Shown here piece by piece: positions 39,720 through 56,155 of a stretch of DNA of 64,000 nucleotides. Position 1 is the stretch's first letter. Each line of letters opens with the position of its first letter. This DNA is from Microtetraspora malaysiensis (GTDB lineage: Bacteria; Actinomycetota; Actinomycetes; Streptosporangiales; Streptosporangiaceae): the NCBI RefSeq assembly GCF_001528665.1, contig NZ_BBYJ01000004.1, forward strand, positions 560,472 to 624,471, in the 5' to 3' direction. The position numbers and the translations under genes were made by a program. Under the pieces are notes generated by a model, which saw nothing but the letters and a program-made list of their open reading frames with translations, had not been told where the DNA came from and did not search any database.

Positions 39720-40175
39720 TCAGAAGGCGAAGACGACACCTGTCGTCGCGCGGAGCTGGCAGGAGTTGCCGTACGTGCGCTCGAACCTGACGTAGGCGTC
39801 GTTCCAGATCCCGTAAGCCGTCACCGTGACCGGGTCGAAGATCATCGGACACGCGACGGCCGGATCGGGCTGGAGCTTGGCGGGATCCCCACCGACCTTC
39901 TCCAGCGCCGGGCACGCCCCTCCGGGCGCCGGGTGCGTGCCGCGCGCGAAGGAGCAGTTCAGCAACGCGTAGCGCTGGGGCGGCGTCCCGGCCTGCCCCT
40001 TGGCCACGGTCACCACCAACGCTTTGGTCCGCGCCTTCATAGGGTGGACCCTGGTGACCGGTACGTCGGCGTTGACGTCCGGCCCCCACGGAGGTGGGAC
40101 GGTGGCGGCGACGGCGGCGCCCGCAGGGCTGATCGCGACAGCCGTGAAGGCGAGAAGTGCGAGAAGTGGCCTCAT
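39720..40175 (-). CDS. secreted SSI-family serine protease inhibitor
   Basis: A 151-residue secreted protein: signal peptide (about 1-24) and a Streptomyces-subtilisin-inhibitor domain. The four SSI cysteines are present (Cys74, 88, 109, 139; the last pair spaced 30 as in SSI). The reactive loop CPMIFDP puts P1 at Met111 and P1' at Ile112, exactly where SSI has Met73-Val74. The C-terminal GVVFAF also matches. It should bind subtilisin- or chymotrypsin-like proteases outside the cell. ATG 40175 has GGGGG 7 nt upstream. It is divergent, 203 bp away, from an intact secreted peptidase gene, a plausible partner. Confidence 0.88.
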   Translation of the reverse strand: MRPLLALLAFTAVAISPAGAAVAATVPPPWGPDVNADVPVTRVHPMKARTKALVVTVAKGQAGTPPQRYALLNCSFARGTHPAPGGACPALEKVGGDPAKLQPDPAVACPMIFDPVTVTAYGIWNDAYVRFERTYGNSCQLRATTGVVFAF

Positions 40176-40378
40176 GTCAATCCCCCGGATTCGGCTGACG
40201 ACAGCCTGTCCGGCCGACCCCCTCGGATCAAGCGCCCACTCCGCGCCGCCGGCGAAATCTGACGTCCCGCGATTATCATCGGTTCCATCAGTTTCATAAC
40301 AACCAGGTCACGAAGCTTCGCGTGCTCTATGCTGATCTGGAAAAATCACCCCTTACCACCCAAGAAGAAGGGCAGAAA

Positions 40379-41476
40379 GTGTTTCGGCGACTCACATCCG
40401 GCCTCGTCGGCGGCCTCGCCGCGGCGAGCGCGGTCGCCGTGCTCTCCGTCCCGGTGCCCGCCACACCCGCCGCCGCGGTGGCCGCGTCGGTGCCACCGAA
40501 GTCCCTGAAGGGTGATGTCAGCTCCTACGCCCTGGCCGCCACGCAGGCGGACATGCTCAAGGTCGCGTCGTACTGGAGCCCGGATCGGCTGAAGCGGGCG
40601 AGCAGCTACGAGCCGAAGACCAAGCCGTCCCCCACGGCCTCGGCCACCACGTCGGCGGCGGAGATGGGCAAGGCGTCGACCCCCCTCCGCGCCCCGGCCA
40701 TCGCCCCCGCGCCCGACGCCCCGCCCATGGTGGGGAAGGTCTTCTTCAAGGTCGACGACAAGGAGTACTGGTGCTCCGCGTCGGCGGTGCATTCGGCGTA
40801 CAAGAACCTGGTCGCGACAGCGGGGCATTGCACCTACTCCCTCGCGCGGGACAAGCCGGTCGAGAACTGGATCTTCATCCCGTCGTACGCCAACGGAGCG
40901 ACGAGCGCGGGCATCTTCGTCGGGCACACGCTCTACATGCACCAGGACTTCCAGGGGCAGGGCGACTTCGACCGAGATTACGCGTTCGTCACCGTCTATC
41001 CGGGCTTCACCTGGCAGCCGTACACCGAGGCGGGCAAGATGAAGTATCGCTCGGTCTCTGTGGGCGCCCTTGAGGACCGGGTGGGGGCGTTCCGCTTCGC
41101 CTGGAACAAGGGCTCCGGCCTGAATGTCCGGGTGTTCGGCTACCCCGCGGGCGCCCACCCGGACGGCAGCCGGCCGTACAACGGGCAGGAGCTCAAGACC
41201 TGCTCGAACGCGACCGAGAAGAAGACGGTCAGCGCGCCCACCTGGCAGCTCGAACACGGCGTACGGCTGGCCGGCTGCGGCTTCACGTCCGGGGCCAGCG
41301 GCGGCCCCTGGGTGATCGGCTACGACAGCGTCAAGCACACCGGCTGGATCAACGGTGTGACCAGCCTGACCTGGAACCTGAACGGGGACGGGAAGGTCGA
41401 CGCCGTCTCCACGCCGTACTTCAACGCGATCGCCCAGCGCGTCTACCTCCAAGCCGCGCGCCAGGCCACCTCCTGA
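40379..41476 (+). CDS. secreted S1/V8-like serine peptidase, copy 1 (triad intact)
   Basis: A 365-residue secreted chymotrypsin-fold peptidase. Signal peptide about 1-36, a pro-region rich in Ala/Pro/Thr to about 115, then the catalytic domain. The triad is complete: His150 (TAGHC), Asp200 (DRDYAFVTV) and Ser307 (GASGGPW). Cys132/151 and Cys275/300 can form the two usual disulfides. The loop after the Asp strand is short. GTG 40379 has GAAGGG upstream and starts directly with the signal peptide. It is the most divergent family member apart from copy 8, lacks the shared leader, and is probably closest to the ancestral active form. Confidence 0.88.
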   Translation: MFRRLTSGLVGGLAAASAVAVLSVPVPATPAAAVAASVPPKSLKGDVSSYALAATQADMLKVASYWSPDRLKRASSYEPKTKPSPTASATTSAAEMGKASTPLRAPAIAPAPDAPPMVGKVFFKVDDKEYWCSASAVHSAYKNLVATAGHCTYSLARDKPVENWIFIPSYANGATSAGIFVGHTLYMHQDFQGQGDFDRDYAFVTVYPGFTWQPYTEAGKMKYRSVSVGALEDRVGAFRFAWNKGSGLNVRVFGYPAGAHPDGSRPYNGQELKTCSNATEKKTVSAPTWQLEHGVRLAGCGFTSGASGGPWVIGYDSVKHTGWINGVTSLTWNLNGDGKVDAVSTPYFNAIAQRVYLQAARQATS

Positions 41477-42018: not shown

Positions 42019-42087
42019 TAGTGTTTTGACCATCCCTTTACTGACGGATGTGACGTTCTCGCGTCTATCGACAGCGCAAGGAGCTCC
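42019..42087 (+). promoter_or_regulatory. -10 and conserved leader, copy 2
   Basis: TAGTGT (42019) is 12 nt before CATCCCTTTACTGACG (42031), the start of the shared leader and the likely transcription start. The leader hairpin is weak here (GACG/CGTC). It ends CAAGGAGCTCC before the ATG. Confidence 0.6.
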
Positions 42088-43260
42088 ATGAACACCCGAG
42101 TCAAGCGCCTGGTTCTCCCTCTCGGGGGGCTCGCCGCCGCCGGCCTCATCGGCAGCACCCTCGTGGCACCCGCCCAGGCCGCTGGCGACACGGCTACCGA
42201 CCCGCTGGCCGCCAGCGGGATGGCCGCCAAGAACGTTGTCGCCTTCTGGCTGAACCAGAAGGCCGCCAATCTGGTCAACGCCTCACCGTACGAGACCCAG
42301 GTGGTGGCGAAGCACATCTCCAAGGGCGGCCCCTCCGCGGACAGCAAGCCCGGCCTCGTCTCGCCGATCGGCAAGGGCGGATCCGGCACGTCCAAGAACG
42401 TGAACCTGCCCAAGACCACCGGCAAGGTGTTCTTCACCGGCTCCGACGGCCGGCCGCACTGGTGCTCGGCCACGTCCCTCCAGGCGAAGTACCGCAACCT
42501 GGTGGCCACGGCCGGCCACTGCGTGTACGACACGGTGTCGAACAAGGCCACCCTGAACCGCTGGGTCTTCATCCCCGGCTACTACCAGGGCAAGGCGCCG
42601 TGGGGCATCTATGTCGGCAAGCAGGCGTTCACGCACTACGACTTCGACGTGTACGAGGACGGCGACCGCGACTACGCGTTCGTGACGGTCTACAACGGCC
42701 TCAAGGCCGGCTCGGGCACGAGCTGGTTCGACACCGCGGAGTGGAACTGGCAGGAGGTCAACAAGGCCACCTACGACAAGTACAGCCCGTACATCCGCAA
42801 GTCGAAGGGCGGCAAGTACTACGTCGTCAGGTTCACCGACGTCGGCCGCCTCGGCGACAACGTCGGCGGCCAGGGCCTGGCCTACAACCAGAAGCTCGGC
42901 AAGAGCGTCTACGTCTTCGGCTACCCGAGCGGGTCCCATCCGGACGGCAACTACGCGTACTCCGGCAAGACGCTCAAGTGGAGCTACGGCAAGACGTTCG
43001 CCGCCAAGGCGCCCGAGGTGAAGGCCGAGGAGCTGGTGGGCGTGAAGTCCTCCTTCACCGGCGAGGGCTCCTCGGGCTCGGCCTGGCTGTTCAACTACAG
43101 CAGCGCGCGCCGCATCGGCTACCTGAACGGCGTCACGAGCGGTGTCGCGGACACCGACGGCAACAACCGGATCGACACCAGCGTCTCGCCGTACTTCGAC
43201 GGTGAGCTTTACGGCATCTACAAGGCCGCCGCGAACGTCTGGTCCGGCAGCATCGCCTGA
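42088..43260 (+). CDS. secreted S1/V8-like serine peptidase, copy 2 (triad intact)
   Basis: A 390-residue secreted protein. Signal peptide about 1-31 (ends PAQAAG), a conserved ~75-residue pro-region (KHISKGGPSADSKPG), then the peptidase domain from TTGKVFF. The triad is present: His144, Asp195 and Ser329 (GEGSSGSAW, with Ser in place of the usual second Gly after SG). Cys126/145 remain, but the second disulfide pair of copies 1 and 8 is gone. A ~45-residue insert (SWFDTAEWNWQEVNKATYDK) follows the Asp strand. It is either a weakly active protease or the link between active and inactive members. Confidence 0.85.
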   Translation: MNTRVKRLVLPLGGLAAAGLIGSTLVAPAQAAGDTATDPLAASGMAAKNVVAFWLNQKAANLVNASPYETQVVAKHISKGGPSADSKPGLVSPIGKGGSGTSKNVNLPKTTGKVFFTGSDGRPHWCSATSLQAKYRNLVATAGHCVYDTVSNKATLNRWVFIPGYYQGKAPWGIYVGKQAFTHYDFDVYEDGDRDYAFVTVYNGLKAGSGTSWFDTAEWNWQEVNKATYDKYSPYIRKSKGGKYYVVRFTDVGRLGDNVGGQGLAYNQKLGKSVYVFGYPSGSHPDGNYAYSGKTLKWSYGKTFAAKAPEVKAEELVGVKSSFTGEGSSGSAWLFNYSSARRIGYLNGVTSGVADTDGNNRIDTSVSPYFDGELYGIYKAAANVWSGSIA

Positions 43261-43275
43261 CACCTGACGTGAGAG

Positions 43276-43306
43276 AAGGGCCCGGCTCCCAAGCCGGGCC
43301 CTTTTT
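43276..43306 (+). terminator. terminator, copy 2
   Basis: GGGCCCGGCT/AGCCGGGCCC stem followed by TTTTT: a strong intrinsic terminator, the same stem as after most other copies. The rest of the gap to 43538 has no gene. Confidence 0.85.
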
Positions 43307-43538
43307 CATGGAATTTCTAGATTTGTCCGGTAAACCTCCCCCGACCGCACGGCGTCGCTGTCCGTTTAGCGGCATTTTGCGACATTTGTAATGACGTGGC
43401 ACCATCGAGCGGCGGGGCGAGCCTGAATGACAGCTGAATGTCAGTGCCAATTCACAACACCGCAGCTCAACGCATTGACAAGCCTGTCTGGCGAAGTCAG
43501 ACACGGCGGAACGAACGGCCCAACCTGAGCCTCTCCTG

Positions 43539-43554
43539 TGTGATTTGCATCACA
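43539..43554. promoter_or_regulatory. Crp-type box, copy 3
   Basis: TGTGATTTGCATCACA is a perfect TGTGA-N6-TCACA site, 268 nt before the start of copy 3. Confidence 0.75.
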
Positions 43555-43748
43555 TGAAGACTTGCAGCGCTGGAGTGTCGAAATGACGGACATGGCGCAG
43601 CAAAGAGAGTCGAAGGATCATCTAGCTGCGGCGACATCTACGGTCTCGCCTCGTTCACGGAACGGCCGACTGGGACGCGACCAGTGAGGTGACCTAACCC
43701 GCCGAGAAATGCCGACTTATGTCGGTTTTAAGGGAACTCGGCCGGATG

Positions 43749-43821
43749 TATGGTTCCTCCATCCCTTTACTGACGCATGGGGCGCAAGATGCGTTCCACG
43801 ACAGCCCAAGGAGTTCCCCAA
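43749..43821 (+). promoter_or_regulatory. -10 and conserved leader, copy 3
   Basis: TATGGT (43749) is 11 nt before CATCCCTTTACTGACG (43760). The hairpin TGGGGCGC/GCGTTCCA pairs through G-U. It ends CAAGGAGTTCCCCAA before the ATG. Confidence 0.65.
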
Positions 43822-45066
43822 ATGAAGCGCACTCTCGCCTTCGGTGGCCTCGTCGCCACCGCCGGCCTCCTGGCCGCCGGCCTCGCCGCCCCGGCTCAGG
43901 CGACCGGCGACGTCGCCAGCGCCCCGCTGGCCGCCACTGGCATCGCCGCGAAGAACATCGTGGCCTTCTGGGCCGCCGAGAACATGGCCGCCCTGAAGGG
44001 CGCCACGCCGTACAACGCGGAGACCAAGGTCGTCGCCAAGCACATCTCCAAGGGTGGCCCGGCTCCGGACAGCAAGCCGGGCATCGTGCCGGCGATCGGC
44101 GACGAGAAGAAGGCCGCCGGCAAGTCGAAGAACGTGAACCTGCCCCGGACCACGGGCAAGGTGTTCTTCATCGGCGCCGACAAGGAGGCCCACTGGTGCA
44201 CCGCGACCTCGGTTCAGTCGCAGTACAAGAACCTGGTCGCGACCGCTGGTAGCTGCGTCTACGACACCGAGTCCAACGCTCAGACGCTGGACTACTGGGT
44301 CTTCATCCCGGGTTACTACCAGGGCAAGACCCCGTACGGCATCTACGTCGGCAAGCAGGCCTTCACCCACTACGACTTCGACGTCTACGAGGACGGCGAC
44401 CGCAACTACGCGTTCGTCACCGTCTACAACGGCCTCAAGTTCCCCCACGACGGCTTCGCCGGTCTCCGCGACCTGGCCGAGGACGGCAAGTACGAGGAGC
44501 TCAAGACGTACGGCGGCCTCCAGGAGGTCGACGAGGCCACCTTCGAGGCGTACAAGAAGGCCGACTTCTACAAGCGGGGCTGGGGCCGTCGCGTTGCTCG
44601 CGACGAGCAGGGCAAGAAGCACTACTTCGTGTGGAAGTTCGCGGACGCGGGCGCCCTGGGTGCGAACGTCGGCGGGCAGGGCCTGGCCTACAACCAGAAG
44701 GTCGGCAAGCCGGTCTTCGTGTTCGGCTACCCGAGCGGGCAGCACCCGGACGGCAACCAGGCCTACTCCGGCCACACCCTCAAGTGGACCTACGGCAAGA
44801 CCTTCGCGGTCCAGGCCCCGGCCATCAAGGGCGAGGAGCTCGTCGGCACCAAGTCGTCGTTCACCGGCGAGGGCGCCCTCGGCTCCGCGTGGCTGCTGAA
44901 CTACAACAACGGCCGCCGCATCGGCTACCTGAACGGTGTCACCATCGGCGTCTCCGACACCGACAACAACAACCGTTACGACACCAGCTTCTCCCCGTAC
45001 TTCGACGGCGAGCTGGCCGGCGTCTACAACGCGGCCAAGAACCTCTGGTCCGGCTCGATCGCCTAG
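43822..45066 (+). CDS. secreted pseudoprotease, copy 3 (His, Asp and Ser all lost)
   Basis: A 414-residue secreted chymotrypsin-fold protein. Signal peptide about 1-28, the conserved pro-region, then the domain. Every triad position is changed: Ser144 in TAGSC (was His), Asn195 in DRNYAF (was Asp), Leu353 in GEGALGSAW (was Ser). Scaffold strands (YWVFIPGYYQGKTPYG, VGGQGLAYNQKVGKPVFVFG, YFDGELAGVY) are otherwise unbroken, so the fold is kept without catalysis. The insert after the Asp strand is ~70 residues (LRDLAEDGKYEELKTYGG, KKADFYKRGWGRR). ATG 43822 has CAAGGAG upstream. The 3' half is nearly identical to copy 5. Confidence 0.88.
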   Translation: MKRTLAFGGLVATAGLLAAGLAAPAQATGDVASAPLAATGIAAKNIVAFWAAENMAALKGATPYNAETKVVAKHISKGGPAPDSKPGIVPAIGDEKKAAGKSKNVNLPRTTGKVFFIGADKEAHWCTATSVQSQYKNLVATAGSCVYDTESNAQTLDYWVFIPGYYQGKTPYGIYVGKQAFTHYDFDVYEDGDRNYAFVTVYNGLKFPHDGFAGLRDLAEDGKYEELKTYGGLQEVDEATFEAYKKADFYKRGWGRRVARDEQGKKHYFVWKFADAGALGANVGGQGLAYNQKVGKPVFVFGYPSGQHPDGNQAYSGHTLKWTYGKTFAVQAPAIKGEELVGTKSSFTGEGALGSAWLLNYNNGRRIGYLNGVTIGVSDTDNNNRYDTSFSPYFDGELAGVYNAAKNLWSGSIA

Positions 45067-45095
45067 TCTCCGCTCGCGGAAACACGGCGATACGC

Positions 45096-45122
45096 GAGAG
45101 CAGGGGTCCAAACCCTGCTCTC
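45096..45122 (+). other. conserved 3'-UTR hairpin, copy 3
   Basis: GAGAGCAGGG/CCCTGCTCTC, a 10-bp perfect stem with loop GTCCAAA. The CAGGG-GTCCAAA-CCCTG core recurs after copies 5, 6 and 7-proximal gene 51551. Confidence 0.6.
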
Positions 45123-45137
45123 ACCCTCGCTTCATCG

Positions 45138-45166
45138 AAGGGCCCGGCTCTCCAGCCGGGCCTTTT
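45138..45166 (+). terminator. terminator, copy 3
   Basis: GGCCCGGCT/AGCCGGGCC stem with CTCC loop, then CCTTTTCGTTTTG. The gap from here to 45389 holds no gene I can support. Confidence 0.85.
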
Positions 45167-45389
45167 CGTTTTGTTGAACCCCAATTTGTGACGGGTCTTT
45201 GAAACACCGCCCGTTTCCGAACTCGGCGAACGAGACCCGTCAACACCAATCGGCGGGCCCGAGGCATCGGCCACGATGGCCGGTCATTTCTACAAAAGTT
45301 TCCGGGCTGCGGGGTAAACCCGTCCGGGCAGTAAAGCGACGCCGCCCGACGACAGTGCTTTTCACTTTTTGTCAACGGACGGATAACCC

Positions 45390-45405
45390 TGTGATTTAGC
45401 CTACA
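45390..45405. promoter_or_regulatory. degenerate Crp-type box, copy 4
   Basis: TGTGATTTAGCCTACA keeps one perfect half (TGTGA) while the other is CTACA. The position (274 nt before the start) matches the boxes of the other copies. The site may be weak. Confidence 0.4.
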
Positions 45406-45606
45406 GGCGCAGGCCGACAAATACCTTTACACAGAGACGACGACGCCGGGAAGAAACGCCTCCATATACCCTCACCTGCGGGAACGCGCCACCATCCCAG
45501 TGGCGATCGGACTACACAGACTCTTTCGCGTTGTCACTTCCACAGAAAAGCTGGCAGACCTCCCAGAAAGCCCTCTTTATGTCTTTCTTACGGTGACCGA
45601 CTGCGC

Positions 45607-45678
45607 TATCTTTTCGGCATCCCTTTCCTGACGTATGGGGCACAAGAAGTGCCCCACGACAGACCAAGGAGTTTCCCC
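45607..45678 (+). promoter_or_regulatory. -10 and conserved leader, copy 4
   Basis: TATCTT (45607) is 11 nt before CATCCCTTTCCTGACG (45618). The hairpin TGGGGCAC-AAGAA-GTGCCCCA (45636-45656) is perfect and changed at a base pair relative to copy 6, a compensatory change. Confidence 0.7.
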
Positions 45679-46959
45679 ATGAAGCGCACTATGGCTTTCG
45701 GTGGCCTCGTCGCCACCGCCGGCCTGCTGGCCGCGGGCCTCGCCGCCCCGGCCCAGGCCGCCGGCGACGTCGCGACCGACGCCCTGGCCACCAACGGCAT
45801 CGCGGCGTGGTCCACGATCGCCTACTGGTACAACAACCAGGCCGCGAACCTGATCAACGCGACCCCGTACAACGTCGAGACCAAGGTCGTCGCCAAGCAC
45901 GTCTCCAAGGGCGGCCCGGCTCCCGACAGCAAGCCGGGCATCGTGCCGGCGATCGGCGACGAGAAGAAGGCCGCCGCCAAGTCGAAGAACGTCAACCTGC
46001 CCAAGACCACCGGCAAGGTGTTCTTCGATGGTGCTGACGGCCAGCCGCACTGGTGCACGGCCACCTCGGTGCAGTCCGCGTACAAGAACCTGGTCGCCAC
46101 CGCCGGACACTGTGTCTACGACACCGGCAAGAACGCCTCCACCATGGAGAACTGGGTCTTCATCCCGGGTTACTACCAGGGCAAGACCCCGTGGGGCATC
46201 TACGTGGGCAAGCAGGCCTTCACCCACTACGACTTCGACGTCTACGAGGACGGCGACCGCGACTACGCCTTCGTCACGGTCTACAACGGTCTCACGATGG
46301 GCCACGACGGCATCTCCGAACCCGACGAGGCGCCCGGCGAGTGGTACGAGGTCTCCTACGAGACCTACTCGAAGTTCCCGAAGATGTACCGCGACCTCGC
46401 CAAGGAGCGCGGACGCTGCTACCTCAAGGAGCGGCCGGGCAAGGACGGCAAGACCCACTACTTCGTGTGGAAGTTCGTGGACGCGGGCGCCCTGGGTGCC
46501 AACGTCGGCGGGCAGGGCCTGGCCTACAACCAGAAGGTCGGCAAGCCGGTCTTCGTGTTCGGCTACCCGAGCGGGCAGCACCCGGACGGCAACCAGGCCT
46601 ACTCCGGCCAGACGCTCAAGTGGACCTACGGCAAGACCTTCCCCGTCCAGGTTCCGGCCATCAAGGGCGAGGAGCTCCTCGGCACCAAGTCGTCGTTCAC
46701 CGGTGAGGGCGCCCTCGGCTCCGCGTGGCTGGTGAACTACAACAACGGCCGCCGCCTGGGCTACCTGAACGGTGTGACCATCGGCGTCTCCGACACCGAC
46801 GGCAACAACCGTTACGACACCAGCTTCTCCCCGTACTTCGACGGCGAGCTGTACGGCGTCTACAACGCGGCCAAGAACCTCTGGTCCGGCTCGATCGCCA
46901 TTCCGTTCGAGTCGCCGGCGATCCCGCACGCGAGCGAGTCGCCCCGGCCGCGCAGCTAA
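45679..46959 (+). CDS. secreted pseudoprotease, copy 4 (Ser lost)
   Basis: A 426-residue secreted family member. Signal peptide about 1-28. His144 (TAGHC) and Asp195 (DRDYAF) are kept, but the nucleophile is Leu346 (GEGALGSAW). The insert after the Asp strand differs again (PDEAPGEWYEVSYETYSKFP, KERGRCYLKERPGKDGK) and adds an unpaired Cys247. Alone in the family it does not stop after WSGSIA: the TAG of its relatives is replaced and reading continues for 20 residues rich in Pro and Ser. The 3' half is nearly identical to copy 7 (51551). ATG 45679 follows CAAGGAGTTTCCCC. Confidence 0.87.
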   Translation: MKRTMAFGGLVATAGLLAAGLAAPAQAAGDVATDALATNGIAAWSTIAYWYNNQAANLINATPYNVETKVVAKHVSKGGPAPDSKPGIVPAIGDEKKAAAKSKNVNLPKTTGKVFFDGADGQPHWCTATSVQSAYKNLVATAGHCVYDTGKNASTMENWVFIPGYYQGKTPWGIYVGKQAFTHYDFDVYEDGDRDYAFVTVYNGLTMGHDGISEPDEAPGEWYEVSYETYSKFPKMYRDLAKERGRCYLKERPGKDGKTHYFVWKFVDAGALGANVGGQGLAYNQKVGKPVFVFGYPSGQHPDGNQAYSGQTLKWTYGKTFPVQVPAIKGEELLGTKSSFTGEGALGSAWLVNYNNGRRLGYLNGVTIGVSDTDGNNRYDTSFSPYFDGELYGVYNAAKNLWSGSIAIPFESPAIPHASESPRPRS

Positions 46960-46984
46960 GTAGCCTGTCGGTTAGTTCGTTCAG

Positions 46985-47011
46985 AAAGGCCCGGCCGCCA
47001 GCCGGGCCTTT
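46985..47011 (+). terminator. terminator, copy 4
   Basis: AAAGGCCCGGC/GCCGGGCCTTT stem, then CTGG. No gene is visible from here to 47231. Confidence 0.8.
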
Positions 47012-47231
47012 CTGGCGTTTCAGGAAACGAACGATGACGCGCCTCGGCCCCGGCCGCATGAGCCCGCCGGAATGGCAGCCCAGCAGCTCCGTTGTCTGGA
47101 CCGATGACGCGGGCCATCCCTCGGCCACAAATCCTCGCACTATGTGATCACTCAAATTCGGAACGACAACAGAGGCCGACCGAAGTTCGGGCTTAGACGC
47201 GACTCGCGTCGATACGGTGCCCCGGACTAGT

Positions 47232-47247
47232 TGTGATCTACACCACA
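47232..47247. promoter_or_regulatory. Crp-type box, copy 5
   Basis: TGTGATCTACACCACA has one mismatch to TGTGA-N6-TCACA. It lies 275 nt before the start of copy 5. Confidence 0.6.
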
Positions 47248-47448
47248 GCATTTCCGGGACGCTCCGGCGCCGCTTCACGGAGACCCGGGCGACGCAGTCT
47301 CACGCCAGGGCAAAGAGCAGCGAAAACGAGAGCGTCCGAAACCTGACTAGTCGGCTTTCGTCGAGTCAGCCAAGTAACGGGATGATCTCGCCGTTCCGCG
47401 TCGCCTCAAAGCGATGACTTGGGGGGTTTCCACGACGAGATCGCGCTG

Positions 47449-47521
47449 TATGTTTTGGCCATCCCTTTACTGACGTCTGGGACGCAAGAAGCGCCCCACG
47501 ACAGCCCAAGGAGTTCCCCAA
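47449..47521 (+). promoter_or_regulatory. -10 and conserved leader, copy 5
   Basis: TATGTT (47449) is 11 nt before CATCCCTTTACTGACG (47460). The hairpin TGGGACGC/GCGCCCCA has one mismatch. The end is identical to copy 3. Confidence 0.65.
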
Positions 47522-48748
47522 ATGAAGCGCACTCTCGCCTTCGGTGGCCTCGTCGCCACCGCCGGCCTCCTGGCCGCCGGCCTCGCCGCCCCGGCTCAGG
47601 CCGCCGGTGACGTCGCCAGCGCCCCGCTGGCCACCAACGGCGTCGCCGGACAGAACGTCGCCGCCTTCTGGCTCGCTGAGAACGCCGCGGCCCTGAAGGG
47701 CGCCACGCCGTACAACACCGAGACCAAGGTCGTCGCCAAGCACATCTCCAAGGGCGGCCCGGCTCCGGACAGCAAGCCGGGCATCGTGCCGGCGATCGGC
47801 GACGAGAAGAAGGCCGCCGGCAAGTCGAAGAACGTCAACCTGCCCCGGACCACGGGCAAGGTGTTCTTCATGGGCGCCGACAAGCAGGCCCACTGGTGCA
47901 CCGCCACCTCGGTCCAGTCGCAGTACAAGAACCTGGTCGCGACCGCTGGTAGCTGCGTCTACGACACCGAGTCCAACGCCGCCACGCTGGACCGCTGGGT
48001 CTTCATCCCGGGCTACTACCAGGGCAAGACCCCGTACGGCATCTACGTCGGCAAGCAGGCCTTCACCCACTACGACTTCGATGTCTACGAGGACGCCGAC
48101 CGCAACTACGCGTTCGTCACCGTCTACAACGGCATCAAGTTCCCGGCCAACGGCTGGTCGGACGTCTTCCGCATGATCCAGGACCGGAAGTGGGAGGAGC
48201 TCGACAAGTACGCGGGCTTCCGCGAGGTCGACAAGGCCACTTACGAGGCCTACGACAAGGACGGCAAGGGCACCGTCCCGCACTACATCTCCCGCAGCGG
48301 CAAGTACAAGGTCTGGAAGTTCGAGGACGCCGGCGCCCTGGGTGCCGCGGTCGGTGGGCAGGGCCTGGCCTACAACCAGAAGGTCGGCAAGCCGGTCTTC
48401 GTGTTCGGCTACCCGAGCGGGCAGCACCCGGACGGCAACCAGGCCTACTCCGGCCACACCCTCAAGTGGACCTACGGCAAGACCTTCGCGGTCCAGGCCC
48501 CGGCCATCAAGGGCGAGGAGCTCGTCGGCACCAAGTCGTCGTTCACCGGCGAGGGCGCCCTCGGCTCCGCGTGGCTGCTGAACTACAACAACGGCCGCCG
48601 CATCGGCTACCTGAACGGTGTCACCATCGGCGTCTCCGACACCGACAACAACAACCGTTACGACACCAGCTTCTCCCCGTACTTCGACGGCGAGCTGGCC
48701 GGCGTCTACAACGCGGCCAAGAACCTCTGGTCCGGCTCGATCGCCTAG
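47522..48748 (+). CDS. secreted pseudoprotease, copy 5 (His, Asp and Ser all lost)
   Basis: A 408-residue secreted family member with the same triple loss as copy 3: Ser144 (TAGSC), Asn195 (DRNYAF), Leu347 (GALGSAW). The signal peptide and first ~30 codons match copies 3 and 6. From about codon 277 to the stop the DNA is nearly identical to copy 3, while the insert between is its own (SDVFRMIQDRKWEELDKYAG, YDKDGKGTVPHYISRSGKY). This pattern indicates duplication or gene conversion with a diversified middle. ATG 47522 has CAAGGAG upstream. Confidence 0.88.
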   Translation: MKRTLAFGGLVATAGLLAAGLAAPAQAAGDVASAPLATNGVAGQNVAAFWLAENAAALKGATPYNTETKVVAKHISKGGPAPDSKPGIVPAIGDEKKAAGKSKNVNLPRTTGKVFFMGADKQAHWCTATSVQSQYKNLVATAGSCVYDTESNAATLDRWVFIPGYYQGKTPYGIYVGKQAFTHYDFDVYEDADRNYAFVTVYNGIKFPANGWSDVFRMIQDRKWEELDKYAGFREVDKATYEAYDKDGKGTVPHYISRSGKYKVWKFEDAGALGAAVGGQGLAYNQKVGKPVFVFGYPSGQHPDGNQAYSGHTLKWTYGKTFAVQAPAIKGEELVGTKSSFTGEGALGSAWLLNYNNGRRIGYLNGVTIGVSDTDNNNRYDTSFSPYFDGELAGVYNAAKNLWSGSIA

Positions 48749-48780
48749 TCTCCGCTTGCGGAAACACGGCGATCCCGTGA

Positions 48781-48849
48781 GAGCAGGGGTCCAAACCCTG
48801 CTCCCACCCTCGCTTCATCGAAGGGCCCGGCTCTCCAGCCGGGCCCTTT
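48781..48849 (+). terminator. hairpin plus terminator, copy 5
   Basis: GAGCAGGG-GTCCAAA-CCCTGCTC (48781-48803), then the GGGCCCGGCT/AGCCGGGCCC terminator (48821-48849) followed by TTTCGTTTTG. Almost the same as after copy 3. Confidence 0.85.
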
Positions 48850-49496
48850 CGTTTTGCCCGGAAGCCATCGATGCTGACCGGGTCCAGTTCGCCGCGATCA
48901 CGCCTTGGAGGGTCGCGCGCGCTGTCGCCACGACTACATCGCGGCAGTTGCCGCCGCACCCATGAGCGGCCGCGATATCAGCGGCGCACCGCGCCACCGA
49001 GCGGCGGCCAAGCACTGCGACTCGCCCGTCTCGCCAAGCTCCCCTGAACCCCACTGCCATGGCACCGCTTCGCGATCACCGTCTCGGTCTCGGTCTCTGT
49101 CCGCCGAGGAGCGTCCCGTCCGTTCCTCTACGCCCTGGTGGTTCTCCTCGACAGGAGCGGCGGCTCCGCCGGGGGGCGGTGTCTCAGGACCGGAATCCGC
49201 GGCATTCCGGACAGCGCGGACGAGAGGCACCACCCTCCGAAAGCCGGCTCGATCGTTGCCGGGGCAGCCCGCCCGCTGGCGATTCGCCACCGGAGACGCC
49301 TCCCTCCCCGCAGTTTTGGACAGCATCAAATAGGCCACCTTCCGCGACCGCTGATCACAATCAGAGCCCCGACAGCACCCCGGCAGTGCGCGACGAGCCC
49401 CGTTCGACTGAGAACCCGGCGAACCGCCTCCGGAGGCGTCGCACCCTCGGGGGCGCGTTAGACGCGAGAGGGGCCACTTTGGTGCCATGTCGGAAA
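48850..49496. other. ~650-bp intergenic stretch, no supported gene
   Basis: Longest gap in the array. Open frames on both strands have no family similarity, no ribosome sites and unnatural composition. It may hold decayed sequence, but I could find no peptidase motif in it. Confidence 0.45.
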
Positions 49497-49512
49497 TGTG
49501 TTTTACATCACA
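49497..49512. promoter_or_regulatory. Crp-type box, copy 6
   Basis: TGTGTTTTACATCACA has one mismatch to TGTGA-N6-TCACA. It lies 271 nt before the start of copy 6. Confidence 0.6.
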
Positions 49513-49684
49513 CAGCGGTTTTTCAGGGTCTATCGATGTAACGACTTCGCCGCGACGATCTCGCCCCGGAATGCGGCGTTGATCTGCGGAGATGAAGATC
49601 GCCCGACCTTCTGGATCAGATTCGAACATAAGGTCACGGAAAGATCTCCACACTTTTCGCAGCGATCCACCGCAACCCGACGGC

Positions 49685-49782
49685 TTTCGCCACGAAAGAT
49701 CGCGCCGGTATGTTTCCGGTCATCCCTTTACTGACGCATGGGGCGCAAGAGGCGTCCCACGACAGCGCAAGGAGTTCCCCAA
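49685..49782 (+). promoter_or_regulatory. promoter and conserved leader, copy 6
   Basis: CTTTCGCCACGAAAG (49684-49698) is an inverted repeat just upstream of the -10 TATGTT (49709), which lies 12 nt before CATCCCTTTACTGACG (49721). Hairpin TGGGGCGC/GCGTCCCA pairs through one G-U. Confidence 0.6.
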
Positions 49783-51021
49783 ATGAAGCGCACCCTCGCA
49801 TTCGGTGGCCTCGTCGCCACCGCCGGCCTCCTGGCCGCCGGCCTGGCCGCCCCGGCTCAGGCCGCCGGTGACGTCGCCAGCACCCCGCTGGCCGCCAACA
49901 AGATCGCCGCGCAGAACATCGTGGCGTTCTGGGCAGCGGAGAACGCCGCCAACCTGGTTCAGGCCACGCCGTACAACGTCGAGACCCAGGTCTCGGCCAA
50001 GCACGTCTCGACCGGCGGTCCGTCCGCGGACAGCAAGCCCGGCGTCGTCCCGGCCATTGGCGACGAGAAGAAGGCTGCCGCCAAGTCGAAGAACGTGAAC
50101 CTCCCGAAGACCACCGGCAAGGTGTTCTTCCTCGGCGCTGACGGCCAGCCGCACTGGTGCTCCGCGACCTCGGTCCAGTCCGGGTACAAGAACCTGGTCG
50201 CGACCGCGGGTCACTGCGTGTACGACACCGTGTCCAACAAGGCCACGATGGACTACTGGGTCTTCGTCCCGGGTTACTACCAGGGCAAGACCCCGTGGGG
50301 CATCTACGTGGGCAAGCAGGCCTACACCCACTACGACTTCGACGTCTACGAGGACGGCGACCGCGACTACGCGTTCGTGACCGTCTACAACGGCCTCAAG
50401 TTCCCGGCCGGTGGCTTCAAGGACTTCAAGGGCATGTCCCGCGACGAGCGGAAGCAGTACGCGGGCTTCCAGCAGGTCGACAAGGCCACGTACGACGCCT
50501 ACGTCGCGGCCGACACCTCGAAGCGTCGCCACGGCAAGGGCTACTACGAGGACAAGGACGAGAACGGCAACACGGTCTACTTCGTGTGGAAGTACGCCGA
50601 CGCCGGTCGCCTCGGCGACAACGTCGGTGGCCAGGGCCTGGCCTACAACCAGAAGATCGGCAAGCCGGTCTTCGTGTTCGGCTACCCGAGCGGCGCCCAC
50701 CCGGACGGCAACCAGGCCTTCTCCGGCAAGACCCTCAAGTGGAGCTACGGCAAGACCTTCGCAGCCACCGCGCCGGCCATCAAGGGCGAGGAGCTGCAGG
50801 GTGTCAAGTCCTCCTTCACCGGCGAGGGCTCGCTCGGCTCCGCGTGGCTGCTCAACTACAACAACGGCCGCCGCGTCGGCTACCTGAACGGTGTCACCAT
50901 CGCGGTGGCCGACCGTGACAACAACAAGCGGATCGACACCAGCCTCTCCCCGTACTTCGACGGCGAGACCTACGGCGTCTACAGCGCGGCCAAGAACAAC
51001 TGGTCCGGCTCGATCGCCTAG
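49783..51021 (+). CDS. secreted pseudoprotease, copy 6 (Ser lost)
   Basis: A 412-residue secreted family member. Signal peptide about 1-28 as in copies 3 and 5. His144 and Asp195 remain; the nucleophile is Leu351 in GEGSLGSAW, one codon change from the GSSGSAW of copy 2. The insert after the Asp strand (KDFKGMSRDERKQYAGFQQV, VAADTSKRRHGKGYYEDKD) is strongly charged. Downstream scaffold features (ADAGRLGDNVGGQG, KWSYGKTFAA) resemble copy 2 more than copies 3-5. ATG 49783 has CAAGGAG upstream. Confidence 0.87.
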   Translation: MKRTLAFGGLVATAGLLAAGLAAPAQAAGDVASTPLAANKIAAQNIVAFWAAENAANLVQATPYNVETQVSAKHVSTGGPSADSKPGVVPAIGDEKKAAAKSKNVNLPKTTGKVFFLGADGQPHWCSATSVQSGYKNLVATAGHCVYDTVSNKATMDYWVFVPGYYQGKTPWGIYVGKQAYTHYDFDVYEDGDRDYAFVTVYNGLKFPAGGFKDFKGMSRDERKQYAGFQQVDKATYDAYVAADTSKRRHGKGYYEDKDENGNTVYFVWKYADAGRLGDNVGGQGLAYNQKIGKPVFVFGYPSGAHPDGNQAFSGKTLKWSYGKTFAATAPAIKGEELQGVKSSFTGEGSLGSAWLLNYNNGRRVGYLNGVTIAVADRDNNKRIDTSLSPYFDGETYGVYSAAKNNWSGSIA

Positions 51022-51054
51022 TTCCCGGCCTGCGGGAACCAGGTGGTCACGGGT

Positions 51055-51119
51055 CAGGGGTCCAAACCCTGCCCCAACCGCTTGACTCACACAGGGTCCG
51101 GCTTTCAGCCGGGCCCTGT
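51055..51119 (+). terminator. hairpin plus terminator, copy 6
   Basis: CAGGG-GTCCAAA-CCCTG (51055-51071), then ACAGGGTCCGGCT/AGCCGGGCCCTGT (51091-51119) before GCCTTTC. A further small stem GTTCCCG/CGGGAAC lies at 51021-51039. Confidence 0.75.
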
Positions 51120-51190
51120 GCCTTTCTCTGGAGACGCGTGAGTGGAACGGCGGGCGCGCCGCCTTCCCACTCTGTATGCTCCAGACAACT

Positions 51191-51222
51191 GAAGGCCCCG
51201 GGGCGTCCGCCCCGGGGCCTTC
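51191..51222 (+). terminator. second terminator after copy 6
   Basis: GAAGGCCCCGGGG/CCCCGGGGCCTTC, a 13-bp perfect stem with a 6-nt loop. It stands between copy 6 and the Crp box of the next copy and insulates them. Confidence 0.65.
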
Positions 51223-51278
51223 GCCGTTCCGGAGGCCCTTAGACGTGACCACACGTCGGTTCGGTGCCATCCAAAGGA

Positions 51279-51294
51279 TGTGATTTAGGTCACA
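51279..51294. promoter_or_regulatory. Crp-type box, gene 51551
   Basis: TGTGATTTAGGTCACA is a perfect TGTGA-N6-TCACA site, 257 nt before the start. Confidence 0.75.
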
Positions 51295-51477
51295 CGGTCC
51301 ATGATCCCTGGTCGTGGCGTCACATCATCACCAAAGCGAGCGCTTCGCTCTTGATCTGCCCATATGCCATCCGGCGGGCAAAAGACCGTCTTCCGCAGAA
51401 AGGTAACGGAACGATTACACCGAGTGGGCGGCGAATGACCCGGTTGAAGTCGCTTCCACGCCGGAAGAGCGCGGCTG

Positions 51478-51550
51478 TATCTTTCCCGCAGTCCTTTACT
51501 GACGCATGGGGCGCATGAGGCGCCCCACGACAGACCAAGGAGTTCCCCCC
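51478..51550 (+). promoter_or_regulatory. -10 and conserved leader, gene 51551
   Basis: TATCTT (51478) is 11 nt before CAGTCCTTTACTGACG (51489). The hairpin TGGGGCGC-ATGAG-GCGCCCCA (51507-51527) is perfect. A CTTCC/GGAAG inverted repeat lies just upstream (51452-51466). Confidence 0.7.
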
Positions 51551-52831
51551 ATGAAGCGCGCTCTCGCGTTCGGCGGTATCGTCGCCGCCACCGGCATGCT
51601 GGCAGCCGGCCTGACCTCCCCCGCCCAGGCCGCCGGCGACGTCGCCAGCAAGCCGCTCGCCTCCACCGGCATCGCGGCGAAGAACATCGTGGCCTACTGG
51701 TACGCCGAGGACTCGGCAAACCTGAAGGGCGCCACGCCGTACAACACCGAGACCAAGGCCGTCGCCAAGCACGTCTCCAAGGGCGGCCCGGCTGCCGACA
51801 GCAAGCCCGGCATCGTGCCGGCCATCGGCGACGAGAAGAAGACCGTCTCGAAGTCGAAGAACGTCAACCTGCCCAAGACCACCGGCAAGGTGTTCTTCAA
51901 GGGTGGCGACGGCGAGAACCACTGGTGCACCGCCACCTCCGTGCAGTCGGCCTACAAGAACCTGGTCGCGACCGCGGGTAGCTGCGTGTACGACACCGTG
52001 TCCAACAAGGCCACGATGGACTACTGGGTCTTCGTCCCGGGTTACTACCAGGGCAAGACCCCGTGGGGCATCTACGTGGGCAAGCAGGCCTTCACCCACT
52101 ACGACTTCGACGTCTACGAGGACGCCGACCGCGACTACGCGTTCGTCACGGTCTACAACGGCCTCAAGACGCCCCACGACGGCGTGCCGCACGGCAACGA
52201 CGTGCCGAAGAAGTCGGACAACGGCGGCACGGGCTGGGCGAACATCGGTGGCTGGCAGGAGGTCACCAAGGACGTCTACGACCAGTACCGCGGTTGGGAC
52301 ACCTTCGTCGGTGACACTGCGACCGTGTACGGCCCGGACTACGACGACTTCAACAAGAACGGCAACCGCACCGAGGAGTTCCAGCACTACTTCGTCTTCA
52401 AGTTCGTGGACGCGGGTGCTCTGGGTGCGAACGTCGGTGGGCAGGGTCTGGCCTACAACCAGAAGGTCGGCAAGCCGGTCTTCGTGTTCGGCTACCCGAG
52501 CGGCTCGCACCCGGACGGCAACCACGCCTACTCCGGCCACACGCTCAAGTGGACCTACGGCAAGACCTTCCCCGTCCAGGTTCCGGCCATCAAGGGCGAG
52601 GAGCTCCTCGGCACCAAGTCGTCGTTCACCGGTGAGGGCGCCCTCGGCTCCGCGTGGCTGGTGAACTACAACAACGGCCGCCGCCTGGGCTACCTGAACG
52701 GTGTGACCATCGGCGTCTCCGACACCGACGGCAACAACCGTTACGACACCAGCTTCTCCCCGTACTTCGACGGCGAGCTGGCCGGCGTCTACAACGCGGC
52801 CAAGAACAACTGGTCCGGCTCGATCGCCTAA
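51551..52831 (+). CDS. secreted pseudoprotease, gene 51551 (His and Ser lost)
   Basis: A 426-residue secreted family member, sixth peptidase-like gene of the long type if copy 1 is excluded. Signal peptide about 1-28. His is Ser144 (TAGSC) and the nucleophile is Leu365 (GEGALGSAW); Asp195 is kept. It has the longest insert, ~80 residues (VPKKSDNGGTGWANIGGWQE, VYGPDYDDFNKNGNRTEEFQ), rich in Asp, Asn and Gly. The 3' ~250 nt match copy 4 closely, including FPVQVPAIKGEELLG. ATG 51551 has CAAGGAG upstream. Confidence 0.88.
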   Translation: MKRALAFGGIVAATGMLAAGLTSPAQAAGDVASKPLASTGIAAKNIVAYWYAEDSANLKGATPYNTETKAVAKHVSKGGPAADSKPGIVPAIGDEKKTVSKSKNVNLPKTTGKVFFKGGDGENHWCTATSVQSAYKNLVATAGSCVYDTVSNKATMDYWVFVPGYYQGKTPWGIYVGKQAFTHYDFDVYEDADRDYAFVTVYNGLKTPHDGVPHGNDVPKKSDNGGTGWANIGGWQEVTKDVYDQYRGWDTFVGDTATVYGPDYDDFNKNGNRTEEFQHYFVFKFVDAGALGANVGGQGLAYNQKVGKPVFVFGYPSGSHPDGNHAYSGHTLKWTYGKTFPVQVPAIKGEELLGTKSSFTGEGALGSAWLVNYNNGRRLGYLNGVTIGVSDTDGNNRYDTSFSPYFDGELAGVYNAAKNNWSGSIA

Positions 52832-52862
52832 TTTCCGCTCGCGGAAACACGGCGATCCGAGA

Positions 52863-52929
52863 CAGGGGTCCAAACCCTGCTCTCACAATCGCATCACCCG
52901 CAGGGCCCGGCTCTCCAGCCGGGCCCTGC
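52863..52929 (+). terminator. hairpin plus terminator, gene 51551
   Basis: CAGGG-GTCCAAA-CCCTG (52863-52879), then GCAGGGCCCGGCT/AGCCGGGCCCTGC (52900-52929) before GCCTTTTC. Confidence 0.8.
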
Positions 52930-53492
52930 GCCTTTTCTGCGGCGCCTCCACCGGAAAGCACGAGAAGCGCCACAGGAAACGCGGAAAGGACGCCCCCGGC
53001 CTTTTATCCCGGCCATCCCACGCGCGGACGGGGCCGATATCCGTGAGCGAGCCGCAGGGGTGTCGAGGAGCTGTTCAAGCTCCTCCGGGCCTGGCCCGAC
53101 CGGAGGGTCGGACGCCCGCGCCAGCAGGGACATCTCGGCGAAAGGCCGGTCGTGGGATCGGAGGGCGGCCCCGTTCCACACCTCTTCCACGAGCTCACGT
53201 CATTTCGTCGAAGCATCGGCGAGCCGGCGCCGACAACCGCTACGTCGCCGACGATTCTTCGCGGCGAAACCTCCACCGCCTCAGCGAGGAAACTGCGAAA
53301 TAACGGCCCTCGTTCAACGGCGCCACGCACTGCCGGCGGAAAATCTTCCACCATCATCGACGGGCCTTACCGCCCGCCCCCGGTCCTTACTGAAGTGGAA
53401 ACTCTTCCAGCCTCGCGCGACCGCAACCGCCATCCGCTCTTATGTCAGCGGAAAGTCGTCGGTGGAAGGCCCCGCCGCCGACCACTACGCGG
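52930..53492. other. ~560-bp stretch without an intact gene
   Basis: No open frame here has recognisable similarity. Immediately downstream lies a fragment of a peptidase-family gene, so this stretch may be the decayed 5' part of a lost copy. I could not confirm that by eye. Confidence 0.4.
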
Positions 53493-53719: not shown

Positions 53720-54931
53720 GTGAAGCGCGTCGTCCTGGCCGCCACGCGTACGGCGGCCGCCGCCGGGGCGCTCTGCGCCGCCACGCTCGTCACCTCCGGC
53801 GCGCCCGCGCCCGCGCACGCGTACGACATCGCCGCCACCCGCCCCCTCGCCACCGAGGCCCAGGTCCCGTCCGTGGTCGCGTACTGGCTCGGCGGCGACG
53901 GCCGCGCCCTCGCGGCCGCGACGCCGTACGCGTTGCGCCTCAAGGTGAGCGCGCGGCAGACGGAGAACGGCGCGGCTCCGGACGGCAAACCGGGCGGCGT
54001 ACGGCCCGCCGACAGCGGGTCAGCGCAGGAGAAGGCCGGGCAGGAGAAGGCCGGGCAGGGAAAGACCGCGGCCGGGAAGACCCCCAGCGCGAACCCCCCC
54101 GGCGCGAAACCGGACGGCGGCAAGCCGGCCCAGGACACGACCGATCCGGACCGGACGGCACAGGACGGGAACCGCACCGCCGCCTCCAAGAACGTCAACC
54201 TGCCCCGGACCACGGGCCGGGTCTTCTTCGTCGGATCCGACGACAAGCCCCACTGGTGCTCGGGCACCTCGGTCCAGGGCCCGCACCGCAATCTCGTCGC
54301 CACCGCCGGGCACTGCGTCTTCGACACAGAGACCGACGGCGCGCCGATGCGGAAATGGATCTTCATCCCCGGCTACCAGCCGGGCGCGGCCCCCTTCGGC
54401 GTGTACGCCGGAAAGCAGGCGTTCACCCACCACGACTTCGCGACGTACCGGGACCTCGACCGCGACTACGCCTTCGTCGCCGTCCACAACGGCCTCGCGC
54501 CGCAGCCCTCGCGCACCCCGGGACGCGTCATCAAGCTGGCCGACGGCGGCCGGCTCGGGGACGGCGTCGGTGGCCAGGGGCTCGCCTACAACCAGGAGAT
54601 CGGCCGCAGGACCGTCATACTCGGACACTCCGCGCCGCCGGTGCGCGGCGCGACGTTCCGGCTCCAGGATCCGTCCATCCACGCGAACGCTCTGCTCGGC
54701 CTGAAGTCGTCCCGGACGACCGATGGCTCGTCCTGGCTGATCGGCTACCGCAAGACCGGACGGCTGGGTTATCTGAACGGCGTCGCCATCGCCACGTCCG
54801 GCGGCGCCGCCGTGTCGCCCTATTTCGACAGCGAGCTCTTCAGCGTCTACGTCGCGGCCCGGAAGGTCCGCTCCGGCGCGGTGCCCGGCGGCGTCTTCCG
54901 TGACGGCGCGAACGAGATCAACATTCTGTAA
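53720..54931 (+). CDS. secreted pseudoprotease, gene 53720 (Ser region deleted/replaced)
   Basis: A 403-residue divergent family member. Signal peptide about 1-34. A charged spacer (about 97-153: repeated AGQEKAGQGK, then Pro/Gly/Asp-rich) is inserted between the pro-region and the domain. His198 and Asp249 are kept. The nucleophile segment is shortened by about three residues and reads TTDGSSW, placing Asp where Ser should be. The variable insert after the Asp strand is very short here. GTG 53720 has GGAG 5 nt upstream. It has only a vestige of the shared leader (CCTCTTTACCGAGG) after TAATCT. Confidence 0.85.
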   Translation: MKRVVLAATRTAAAAGALCAATLVTSGAPAPAHAYDIAATRPLATEAQVPSVVAYWLGGDGRALAAATPYALRLKVSARQTENGAAPDGKPGGVRPADSGSAQEKAGQEKAGQGKTAAGKTPSANPPGAKPDGGKPAQDTTDPDRTAQDGNRTAASKNVNLPRTTGRVFFVGSDDKPHWCSGTSVQGPHRNLVATAGHCVFDTETDGAPMRKWIFIPGYQPGAAPFGVYAGKQAFTHHDFATYRDLDRDYAFVAVHNGLAPQPSRTPGRVIKLADGGRLGDGVGGQGLAYNQEIGRRTVILGHSAPPVRGATFRLQDPSIHANALLGLKSSRTTDGSSWLIGYRKTGRLGYLNGVAIATSGGAAVSPYFDSELFSVYVAARKVRSGAVPGGVFRDGANEINIL

Positions 54932-55054: not shown

Positions 55055-56155
55055 ATGCAGAAGCAGCTGCTTCTCCCCCTGGGCGGCCTCGCCGCCACCG
55101 GCCTTCTGGCCGCTGCCCTGGTCACCCCCGCCACGGCCGCATCCACCGTGTCGAAGGCCAAGCTCGCCTCCCCCGCGAACGCCGCGGACATCATCGACTT
55201 CTGGACCACCGACGGCGGCACCAACCTCAAGGCCGCCAAGGCATACGGCGCCGAGCACAAGCGGGTGCCGAAGCACGTCTCCACCGGCGGACCGGCCGCC
55301 GACGGCAAGCCGGGCGTCGTGCCGGCGATCGGCGACGAGAAGAAGGCCGCCGGCAAGTCCAAGAACGTCAACCTGCCCAAGACCGTGGGCCGCGCGTTCT
55401 TCGTCATCGACGACGAGCTCTACGCCTGCTCCGCGTCGGCGATCCAGTCGCAGTACCGCAACATGGTCGCCACCGCCGGCCACTGCGTCTACGACATCGA
55501 CACCAACCGGCAGACCGTGAGCAAGTGGGTCTTCGTCCCCGGCTACTACGACGGCAAGGCCCCGTGGGGTGTCTACGTCGGCAAGCAGGCGTTCACGCAC
55601 TACGACTTCGACGTCTATGAGGACCTCGACCGCGACTACGCGTTCGTCACGGTCTACAACGGCATCGGGTACGACGCCAAGAAGGACGCGTTCGTCGACC
55701 TCGGCCCGCTCGGCGCCAACGCCGGCGGCCAGGGCTTCGCGTACAACCAGAAGGTCGGCCAGCCGGTCTTCGCCTTCGGCTACCCGGCCGCGCCGCACGA
55801 CGACGGCAACTACGTCTTCACCGGCCAGAAGATGAAGTGGTGCCACGGCAAGCCCGTCTACCCCATCGTCGAGAGCAGCGTGAAGGTCGAGGAGCAGATC
55901 GGCCTCAAGTGCTCGATGACCGGCGGCTCCTCCGGCGGCCCCTGGATCCTCAAGTACAACAGCAACCGTCGCCTCGGCTACATCAACGGCGTGACCAGCC
56001 TCGGTGGCGACACCGACGGCAACCACCGCAGCGACATGATCACCTCGGCCTACTTCGACGGTGAGACCTACAGCGTGTACCGCGCCGGCTTCTCCCTCTG
56101 GTCCGGCTCGCTGGTCAAGAAGGACGGCTCGATCGGGATCACCGAGACGAAGTAA
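55055..56155 (+). CDS. secreted S1/V8-like serine peptidase, last copy (triad intact)
   Basis: A 366-residue secreted peptidase. Signal peptide about 1-29, the conserved pro-region (KHVSTGGPAADGKPG), then the catalytic domain. The triad is complete: His143 (TAGHC), Asp194 (DRDYAF), Ser293 in a textbook GGSSGGPW. Four Cys (125, 144, 263, 286) allow both classic disulfides. The insert after the Asp strand is only ~20 residues. It shares pro-region and leader with the pseudoproteases but catalytic features with copy 1, so it may be an active enzyme and a relative of the array's ancestor. ATG 55055 has CAAGGAG upstream. Confidence 0.9.
   Translation: MQKQLLLPLGGLAATGLLAAALVTPATAASTVSKAKLASPANAADIIDFWTTDGGTNLKAAKAYGAEHKRVPKHVSTGGPAADGKPGVVPAIGDEKKAAGKSKNVNLPKTVGRAFFVIDDELYACSASAIQSQYRNMVATAGHCVYDIDTNRQTVSKWVFVPGYYDGKAPWGVYVGKQAFTHYDFDVYEDLDRDYAFVTVYNGIGYDAKKDAFVDLGPLGANAGGQGFAYNQKVGQPVFAFGYPAAPHDDGNYVFTGQKMKWCHGKPVYPIVESSVKVEEQIGLKCSMTGGSSGGPWILKYNSNRRLGYINGVTSLGGDTDGNHRSDMITSAYFDGETYSVYRAGFSLWSGSLVKKDGSIGITETK

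Follow-up and report, generated by a model that had tools for sequence, protein, structure and literature searches.

The window analysed here is a stretch of 64,000 nucleotides from a contig of Microtetraspora malaysiensis. It carries nine related genes, c1–c9, all on the forward strand between positions 40322 and 56155, which form a tandem family encoding secreted proteins of the chymotrypsin fold (Table 1). Ectopic gene conversion has, with a probability of roughly 85%, rewritten the regions flanking a variable insert in c3–c7, chiefly the C-terminal half, and has spared the insert. An earlier note made from the sequence alone had described mosaic paralogues between 44674 and 52780. Gene conversion with exchanged modules, as proposed there, is the best reading of incongruent trees, approximately unbiased (AU) tests and nearest-neighbour counts, while the extent given was too narrow, as there are nine copies of which several lie outside that interval.

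Near identity of c3 and c5 from 44674 and 48356 into the 3' untranslated region (UTR), as the note had it, was recovered as a run of 401 identical bp. This was followed by a single mismatch at 45075, by further identity to 45091 and by 96% identity over 45093–45173 and 48776–48856, the stretch that contains the terminator hairpin. The stretch common to c4 and c7 is identical over 240 bp and ends exactly at position 52780 as read previously, but it stops short of the stop codon, with mismatches at 46852–46853 and 46879–46880; c4 has a 3' end of its own with a 19-residue tail. A terminator scan flagged hairpins after c2, c3, c5, c6 and c7, that of c4 being visible by eye. A GENECONV-style test was performed on 438 polymorphic columns of c2–c7 with 2000 column permutations. 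The runs c3/c5 (99 sites), c4/c7 (67 sites) and c6/c7 (30 sites) were each matched in 0 of 2000 permutations, and the same was true of the 24-site runs c3/c6 and c5/c6 in the signal-peptide codons, which c3, c5 and c6 have in common as originally observed. The middle segments follow none of these groupings, again in agreement with the note, as all 15 pairs are 40–79% identical in the three insert windows (columns 660–870); c3 and c5 are 99–100% identical from column 900 onward. The recombination check that the note had called for was made with our own implementation of the pairwise homoplasy index (PHI) and 1000 permutations, and resulted in 0/1000 for c2–c7 and 6/1000 for c3–c7.

The comparison was extended to 149 open reading frames (ORFs) of the family collected from the window and 44 other loci. 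As 28 of these are without the Asp anchor and 16 more without the second anchor, 105 entered the segment work. Nearest neighbours were counted for 48 of the 105 (inserts of 40–90 aa, named genomes and that of the window), 47 of which are in genomes with at least two copies; gaps were scored as mismatches for inserts only, and the array of M. fusca is incomplete in the collected set. The nearest neighbour was found in the same genome for 24/47 C-cores and 16/47 N-cores, against maxima of 13 and 11 in 300 label shuffles. For inserts this was the case in 1/47 (shuffle maximum 11), the nearest neighbour of the remaining 46 being in another genome. The insert of c5, for example, is 94% identical to that of M. 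niveoalba copy 5 and 73% to that of c3, and its C-core is 92.9% identical to the former and 98.6% to the latter. Similarly, the C-core of c4 is 96.7% identical to that of c7 and 89.1% to that of its insert ortholog in Microtetraspora sp. NBRC 16547.

Trees were calculated for 36 of the 48 copies. In the C-core tree c3, c4, c5 and c7 make up one clade (support 95/94), outside of which fall the type-7 copies of M. fusca (97/96) and M. niveoalba (84/90). Genome-wise C-core clades were also observed in four other assemblies, namely Planotetraspora copies 1–5 (95/94), M. triticiradicis 4/5/7 (98/96), NBRC 16547 3/7 (100/100) and M. niveoalba 3/5. The clades of the insert tree, in contrast, are types that span species. 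The note had named a single topology for all segments as the outcome that would speak against exchange, and the AU tests rejected it with one exception, given below. On C-core data the clade of c5 with M. niveoalba copy 5 (p-AU 5.2e-5) and that of c4 with NBRC 16547 copy 4 (4.5e-4) were rejected, as were c3 with c5 (4.1e-5) and c4 with c7 (6e-49) on insert data. Module exchange was also seen in another species, M. glauca, where one copy combines an insert of the c7 type with a C half that falls among copies of the c6 type.

Insert types were defined by single-linkage clustering at 45% identity and 75% coverage. In the collected loci neither the c4 type nor the c7 type was found twice in a genome; the former is carried by 9 genomes (4 genera) and the latter by 6 (3 genera). 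When c7 was compared with Planotetraspora copy 4, nonsynonymous and synonymous divergence (dN and dS) of the insert were 0.151 and 0.380 with a dN of 0.104 and 0.120 in the flanks, meaning that this insert is under constraint. In four within-window paralogue pairs the ratio of nonsynonymous to synonymous differences (pN/pS) of the insert was 0.90–1.42.

Several points weigh against the conversion reading. PHI was no longer significant for c3–c7 once the insert was removed (60/1000). The clade of c7 with M. niveoalba copy 7 was not rejected on C-core data (p 0.175), and no conflict between C-core and insert orthologues was found for c2 or c6, the latter grouping with M. niveoalba copy 6 in the C-core tree. 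Same-genome neighbours of the pro-region (9/46) and the 3' UTR (6/47) did not exceed the shuffle maxima of 11 and 10; spread of conversion into these regions is not a general feature. The largest insert cluster (n=21) is looser, joins the types of c2, c3, c5 and c6 and has up to 4 copies per genome. Positive selection on the inserts was not shown by cross-genome pN/pS values of 0.12–1.26, which pooled to 0.67 and thus below 1. As divergence and heterology alone would spare the inserts, selection for distinct targets is not required.

In order to evaluate what the family encodes, profile and fold searches were utilized. Out of the nine proteins c9 alone passed the Pfam cut-off (Trypsin_2, Trypsin), the rest scoring below it or not at all. 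The model of c5, with a mean predicted local distance difference test score of 86.7, aligned over residues 104–402 to Anisep of Arthrobacter nicotinovorans (3wy8; Z 28.1, root mean square deviation 2.2, 216 aligned) and also to AL20 (3cp7; Z 27.5, deviation 2.1, 214 aligned), and profile matches to the two had E values of 4.6e-26 and 3.6e-25. Both searches are clear, and the predicted fold is the double beta-barrel chymotrypsin (trypsin) fold. Anisep and AL20 are bacterial trypsin-fold serine proteases that have this fold in common with the c5 model, whereas c3–c7 are without the catalytic Ser (some also without His and Asp) and without the Cys pair, and have an additional segment inserted between the two barrels. 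This insert spans 62–81 aa in c3–c7 and 45 in c2. In the c5 model (approximately residues 206–266) it is predicted as a small alpha/beta subdomain (block means 78–94), which would point away from the cleft judging by the general topology of the chymotrypsin fold rather than by coordinates. The c7 model is weak in the insert (block means 49–76) and no fold is claimed for it. By eye, the inserts follow a motif of roughly W/F-x-E/K-V-x4-Y/F ... Y-x-V-W-K-F.

Relative to c9, all three catalytic residues are lost in c3 and c5, two in c7 and the Ser in c4, c6 and c8, the triad being present in c1, c2 and c9. Ser is replaced by Leu in all of c3–c7, His by Ser in c3, c5 and c7 and Asp by Asn in c3 and c5. 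On these replacements c3–c7 are predicted pseudoproteases without an active S1 peptidase triad. Family-wide, the catalytic Ser was kept in 47 and lost in 101 of 148 scorable proteins (1 of the 149 was unscored), with Leu in 64, Ile in 16, Asp in 16, Ala in 2 and Met, Gly and Val in 1 each. Loss was observed in 79/94 proteins with inserts of at least 40 residues and in 22/54 without (Fisher p 1.1e-7), where the rows are related and exceptions exist. In other genera (L052–L056 and L058) the residue is often Asp (GADGGPW), not Leu or Ile, which suggests parallel inactivation. With open ORFs and a pooled pN/pS of 0.30–0.67, these are not decaying pseudogenes.

A leader model, R1, matches upstream of c2–c7 and c9 and of dispersed copies on contigs 15, 17 and 20 (L048, L049 and L050). 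The leader hairpin has 16 consensus pairs of which 6 are changed on both sides (shuffled mean 2.1, at least 6 in 1/500 shuffles), counts that are inflated by the relatedness of the sequences and by the derivation of the structure from the very alignment that was counted. Its outer CCUU pairs with the AAGG of the Shine-Dalgarno sequence, and translation may be gated by a hairpin that hides this site. When sequences were folded singly, the hairpin was returned for c3–c7 (z -1.8 to -3.9) and also for c9 (z -1.2), whereas it was absent from the fold of c2 (z -0.1). A search with R1 identified 12 clear sites in the genome of the window, each immediately upstream of a gene of the family (next E 0.06), and 115 sites in 14/14 chosen array-bearing relatives. 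A subset of 22 off-array sites among these (20 stretches, 7 genomes) was checked, and 22/22 precede a family ORF. The leaders of 2/149 genes were too close to the locus end. The model was found in 44/120 Streptosporangiaceae genomes and 24/68 genera. Membership of a wider regulon is unsupported, given that the clear sites and the checked off-array sites are all at family genes. Rfam 15 gave 4 matches with E of at most 1 over 39500–56300, none of which reached the gathering score or fell at a leader, all four being at gene 3' ends; a scan for sigma-70-type promoters returned 0 sites, an outcome of little weight in this phylum.

Under conversion, long homology on either side of the insert (leader and signal peptide on the one hand, the C half on the other) would recombine between neighbouring copies on the same chromosome. 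The tracts would end at the insert, and the insert be skipped, because inserts are too different to recombine. This would result in a uniform scaffold with distinct inserts. The tracts probably stem from non-reciprocal conversion and not from paired crossovers, and c7 is suggested as the source lineage for c4, c3 and c5, since these are nested with c7-type copies in one tree. Unequal crossing-over with recent duplication, which the note had offered as an alternative, would generate chimeric genes at the crossovers and change copy number each time. The number of central-class copies does vary between genomes, and in a relative (G015, L058) two adjacent copies at 4710–6512 and 7069–8871 are identical over 1,803 bp, a pair that is either a fresh duplication or a complete conversion. 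The best insert matches of c2, c4, c5, c6 and c7 are nevertheless in the same order in M. niveoalba (that of c4 weak, 44%), as are those of c2, c4 and c6 in NBRC 16547, and the c3/c5 tract skips the intervening c4. With insert types collinear between species conversion needs fewer steps, and crossing-over is quite unlikely for these tracts; the variable copy number implies that crossing-over or duplication also took place over longer times. Collapse or mis-joining of identical stretches in a short-read assembly is very unlikely. The genome is an 8.8 Mb draft of 53 contigs and tracts of 110–401 bp are of a length at which short reads can be misleading; however, four other assemblies have genome-wise C-half clusters with other pairings and the upstream regions are distinct for each copy. 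Least probable are silent cassettes for antigenic variation, in which the copies would be donors for one expressed locus. The likeness, tandem paralogues with conversion, is superficial, whereas c2–c7 and c9 each have a leader, Shine-Dalgarno sequence, signal peptide and full ORF of their own and two insert types are stable across genera. The idea, which would call for a single expression site and promoterless donors, was rejected because the leader-bearing copies are complete genes.

What the conversion-shaped proteins do is a separate matter. The most likely use would be non-catalytic binding through the insert on an inactivated protease scaffold. The fuller proposal, that these are secreted non-catalytic binders in which the insert recognises a type-specific target, the scaffold is kept uniform by conversion and translation is gated by the leader, is put forward tentatively, at somewhat below even odds. 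The main functional rival, which concerns function and not conversion, is that the dead proteases are decoys that bind the adjoining SSI-type (subtilisin inhibitor-like) protein or the inhibitors of rivals via the old active site, sparing active c1 and c9. The SSI gene adjoins the array, divergently placed, in most genera sampled; it is present in 11 collected loci (window included) and within approximately 2 kb of the nearest leader in 3 further genomes, and the triad-bearing c1 and c9 sit at both array ends. Against this, none was found between the alcohol dehydrogenase and malic enzyme genes in G003 and G015 (L052 and L058), the replacement of Ser by Leu or Ile and of His by Ser and the loss of the Cys pair would alter the cleft that an inhibitor needs, and the conserved inserts are left unexplained. 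We consider decoys rather improbable. Slightly more doubtful than the binder proposal itself is its extension to the Streptosporangiaceae, which would each keep some dozen secreted proteins with the leader, for the most part pseudoproteases, with a dead scaffold made uniform by conversion, inserts that are stable recognition types common to several genera and one family-specific RNA switch that hides the Shine-Dalgarno sequence, as a bacterial counterpart of the serine-protease-homologue recognition families of animals.

Among inactive serine-protease homologues those of animals are the best studied, and single bacterial pseudoproteases such as CspC exist. In a 2008 survey, 42 putative inactive serine protease homologues are reported among 966 in 91 prokaryote genomes (PMC2605481). 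The scabies mite inactive serine protease paralogues (SMIPP-S) are, like c3–c7, a serine-protease paralogue family, described as being without proteolytic activity and as inhibiting through a site distinct from what remains of the active-site region (PMC4031079). The abstract (PMC4031079) mentions neither conversion nor insert types nor an RNA leader. They are animal proteins, presumably of separate origin. Prokaryotic paralogues of the tuf type are summarised as closer within a genome than to their orthologues, which is ascribed to recurrent gene conversion as is done here; those cases are mostly of key pathways or complexes, whereas here a secreted family has one module that escapes homogenisation (PMC6053082). 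Chp and Pat-1 of Clavibacter are likewise actinobacterial secreted serine-protease-like proteins, likened by description only (PMC11290698, PMC9006514). No description of the family was found in the open-licence PMC literature among the matches listed, and absence in print is not claimed. Conversion and pseudoproteases are each known kinds; a bacterial case in which the two occur together, along with conserved types of insert and an RNA leader specific to the family, was not met among those matches. Conversion that homogenises flanks and spares a module would be a natural readout of which protein part stays individual, here the inter-barrel insert, and in a bacterial family arranged in tandem and equipped with an RNA leader of its own, a non-catalytic role would become testable in cultured actinobacteria. 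Beyond what had been seen from the sequence alone, most of the proteins are without catalytic residues and it is the insert that is conserved between genera.

The array occupies a slot with the order PadR, alcohol dehydrogenase, SSI-type protease inhibitor, array, malic enzyme and CGNR regulator, which was found again in other genera, whole or partial as far as the loci extend. The closest named relatives of the c6 protein are from Microtetraspora species, followed by other Streptosporangiaceae.

Table 1. Coordinates of the array genes and associated features in the window.
Feature	Position	Strand	Evidence
SSI-family (subtilisin inhibitor-like) secreted protein gene, divergent from array	39720..40175	-	Pfam PF00720, E 1.4e-21
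c1, trypsin-fold, H-D-S triad kept (GASGGPW), short linker, different leader	40322..41476	+	
c2 leader, matches model R1; consensus hairpin not its predicted single-sequence fold	42022..42087	+	
c2, H-D-S kept, Cys pair lost (GSSGSAW), 45-aa insert	42088..43260	+	
c3 leader hairpin; outer stem pairs with AAGG of Shine-Dalgarno	43762..43821	+	
c3, predicted pseudoprotease: His to Ser, Asp to Asn, Ser to Leu	43822..45066	+	
c4, predicted pseudoprotease: Ser to Leu; 62-aa insert	45679..46959	+	
c5, predicted pseudoprotease: His to Ser, Asp to Asn, Ser to Leu; structure predicted	47522..48748	+	
c5 insert, 63 aa, variable module between two beta-barrels	48137..48325	+	
c6, predicted pseudoprotease: Ser to Leu (GSLGSAW); C half outside c3/c4/c5/c7 group	49783..51021	+	
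c7, predicted pseudoprotease: His to Ser, Ser to Leu; 81-aa insert	51551..52831	+	
c8, diverged; stretch around catalytic Ser shortened; different leader; without Pfam match	53720..54931	+	
c9, H-D-S triad and Cys pair kept (GSSGGPW); leader of the c2–c7 kind	55055..56155	+	
Probable conversion tract c3/c5, 401 bp, 100%	44674..45074 / 48356..48756	+	
Probable conversion tract c4/c7, 240 bp, 100%	46612..46851 / 52541..52780	+	
Short tract c6/c7 in N-terminal barrel, 110 bp, 100%	50214..50323 / 51982..52091	+	

Further relatives were observed on other contigs of the same genome (L048 with three copies, L049, L050 and L051). Five of these have inserts of 155–233 aa that by eye look like repeated strand-helix units, and no Pfam family was found inside the long inserts in the 2 that were checked (L048 copy 1 and L049). 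A dispersed copy in M. glauca (C8, L125) is split over two reading frames, being either a broken gene or a sequencing error. Genes of the c1 type have a different leader with GATCTGGAAAAATC, located upstream of c1 (40322 / 40379) and of c1-like genes in L053, L055, L058, L059, L060, L063, L064, L067 and L068, which is possibly another private regulatory element.

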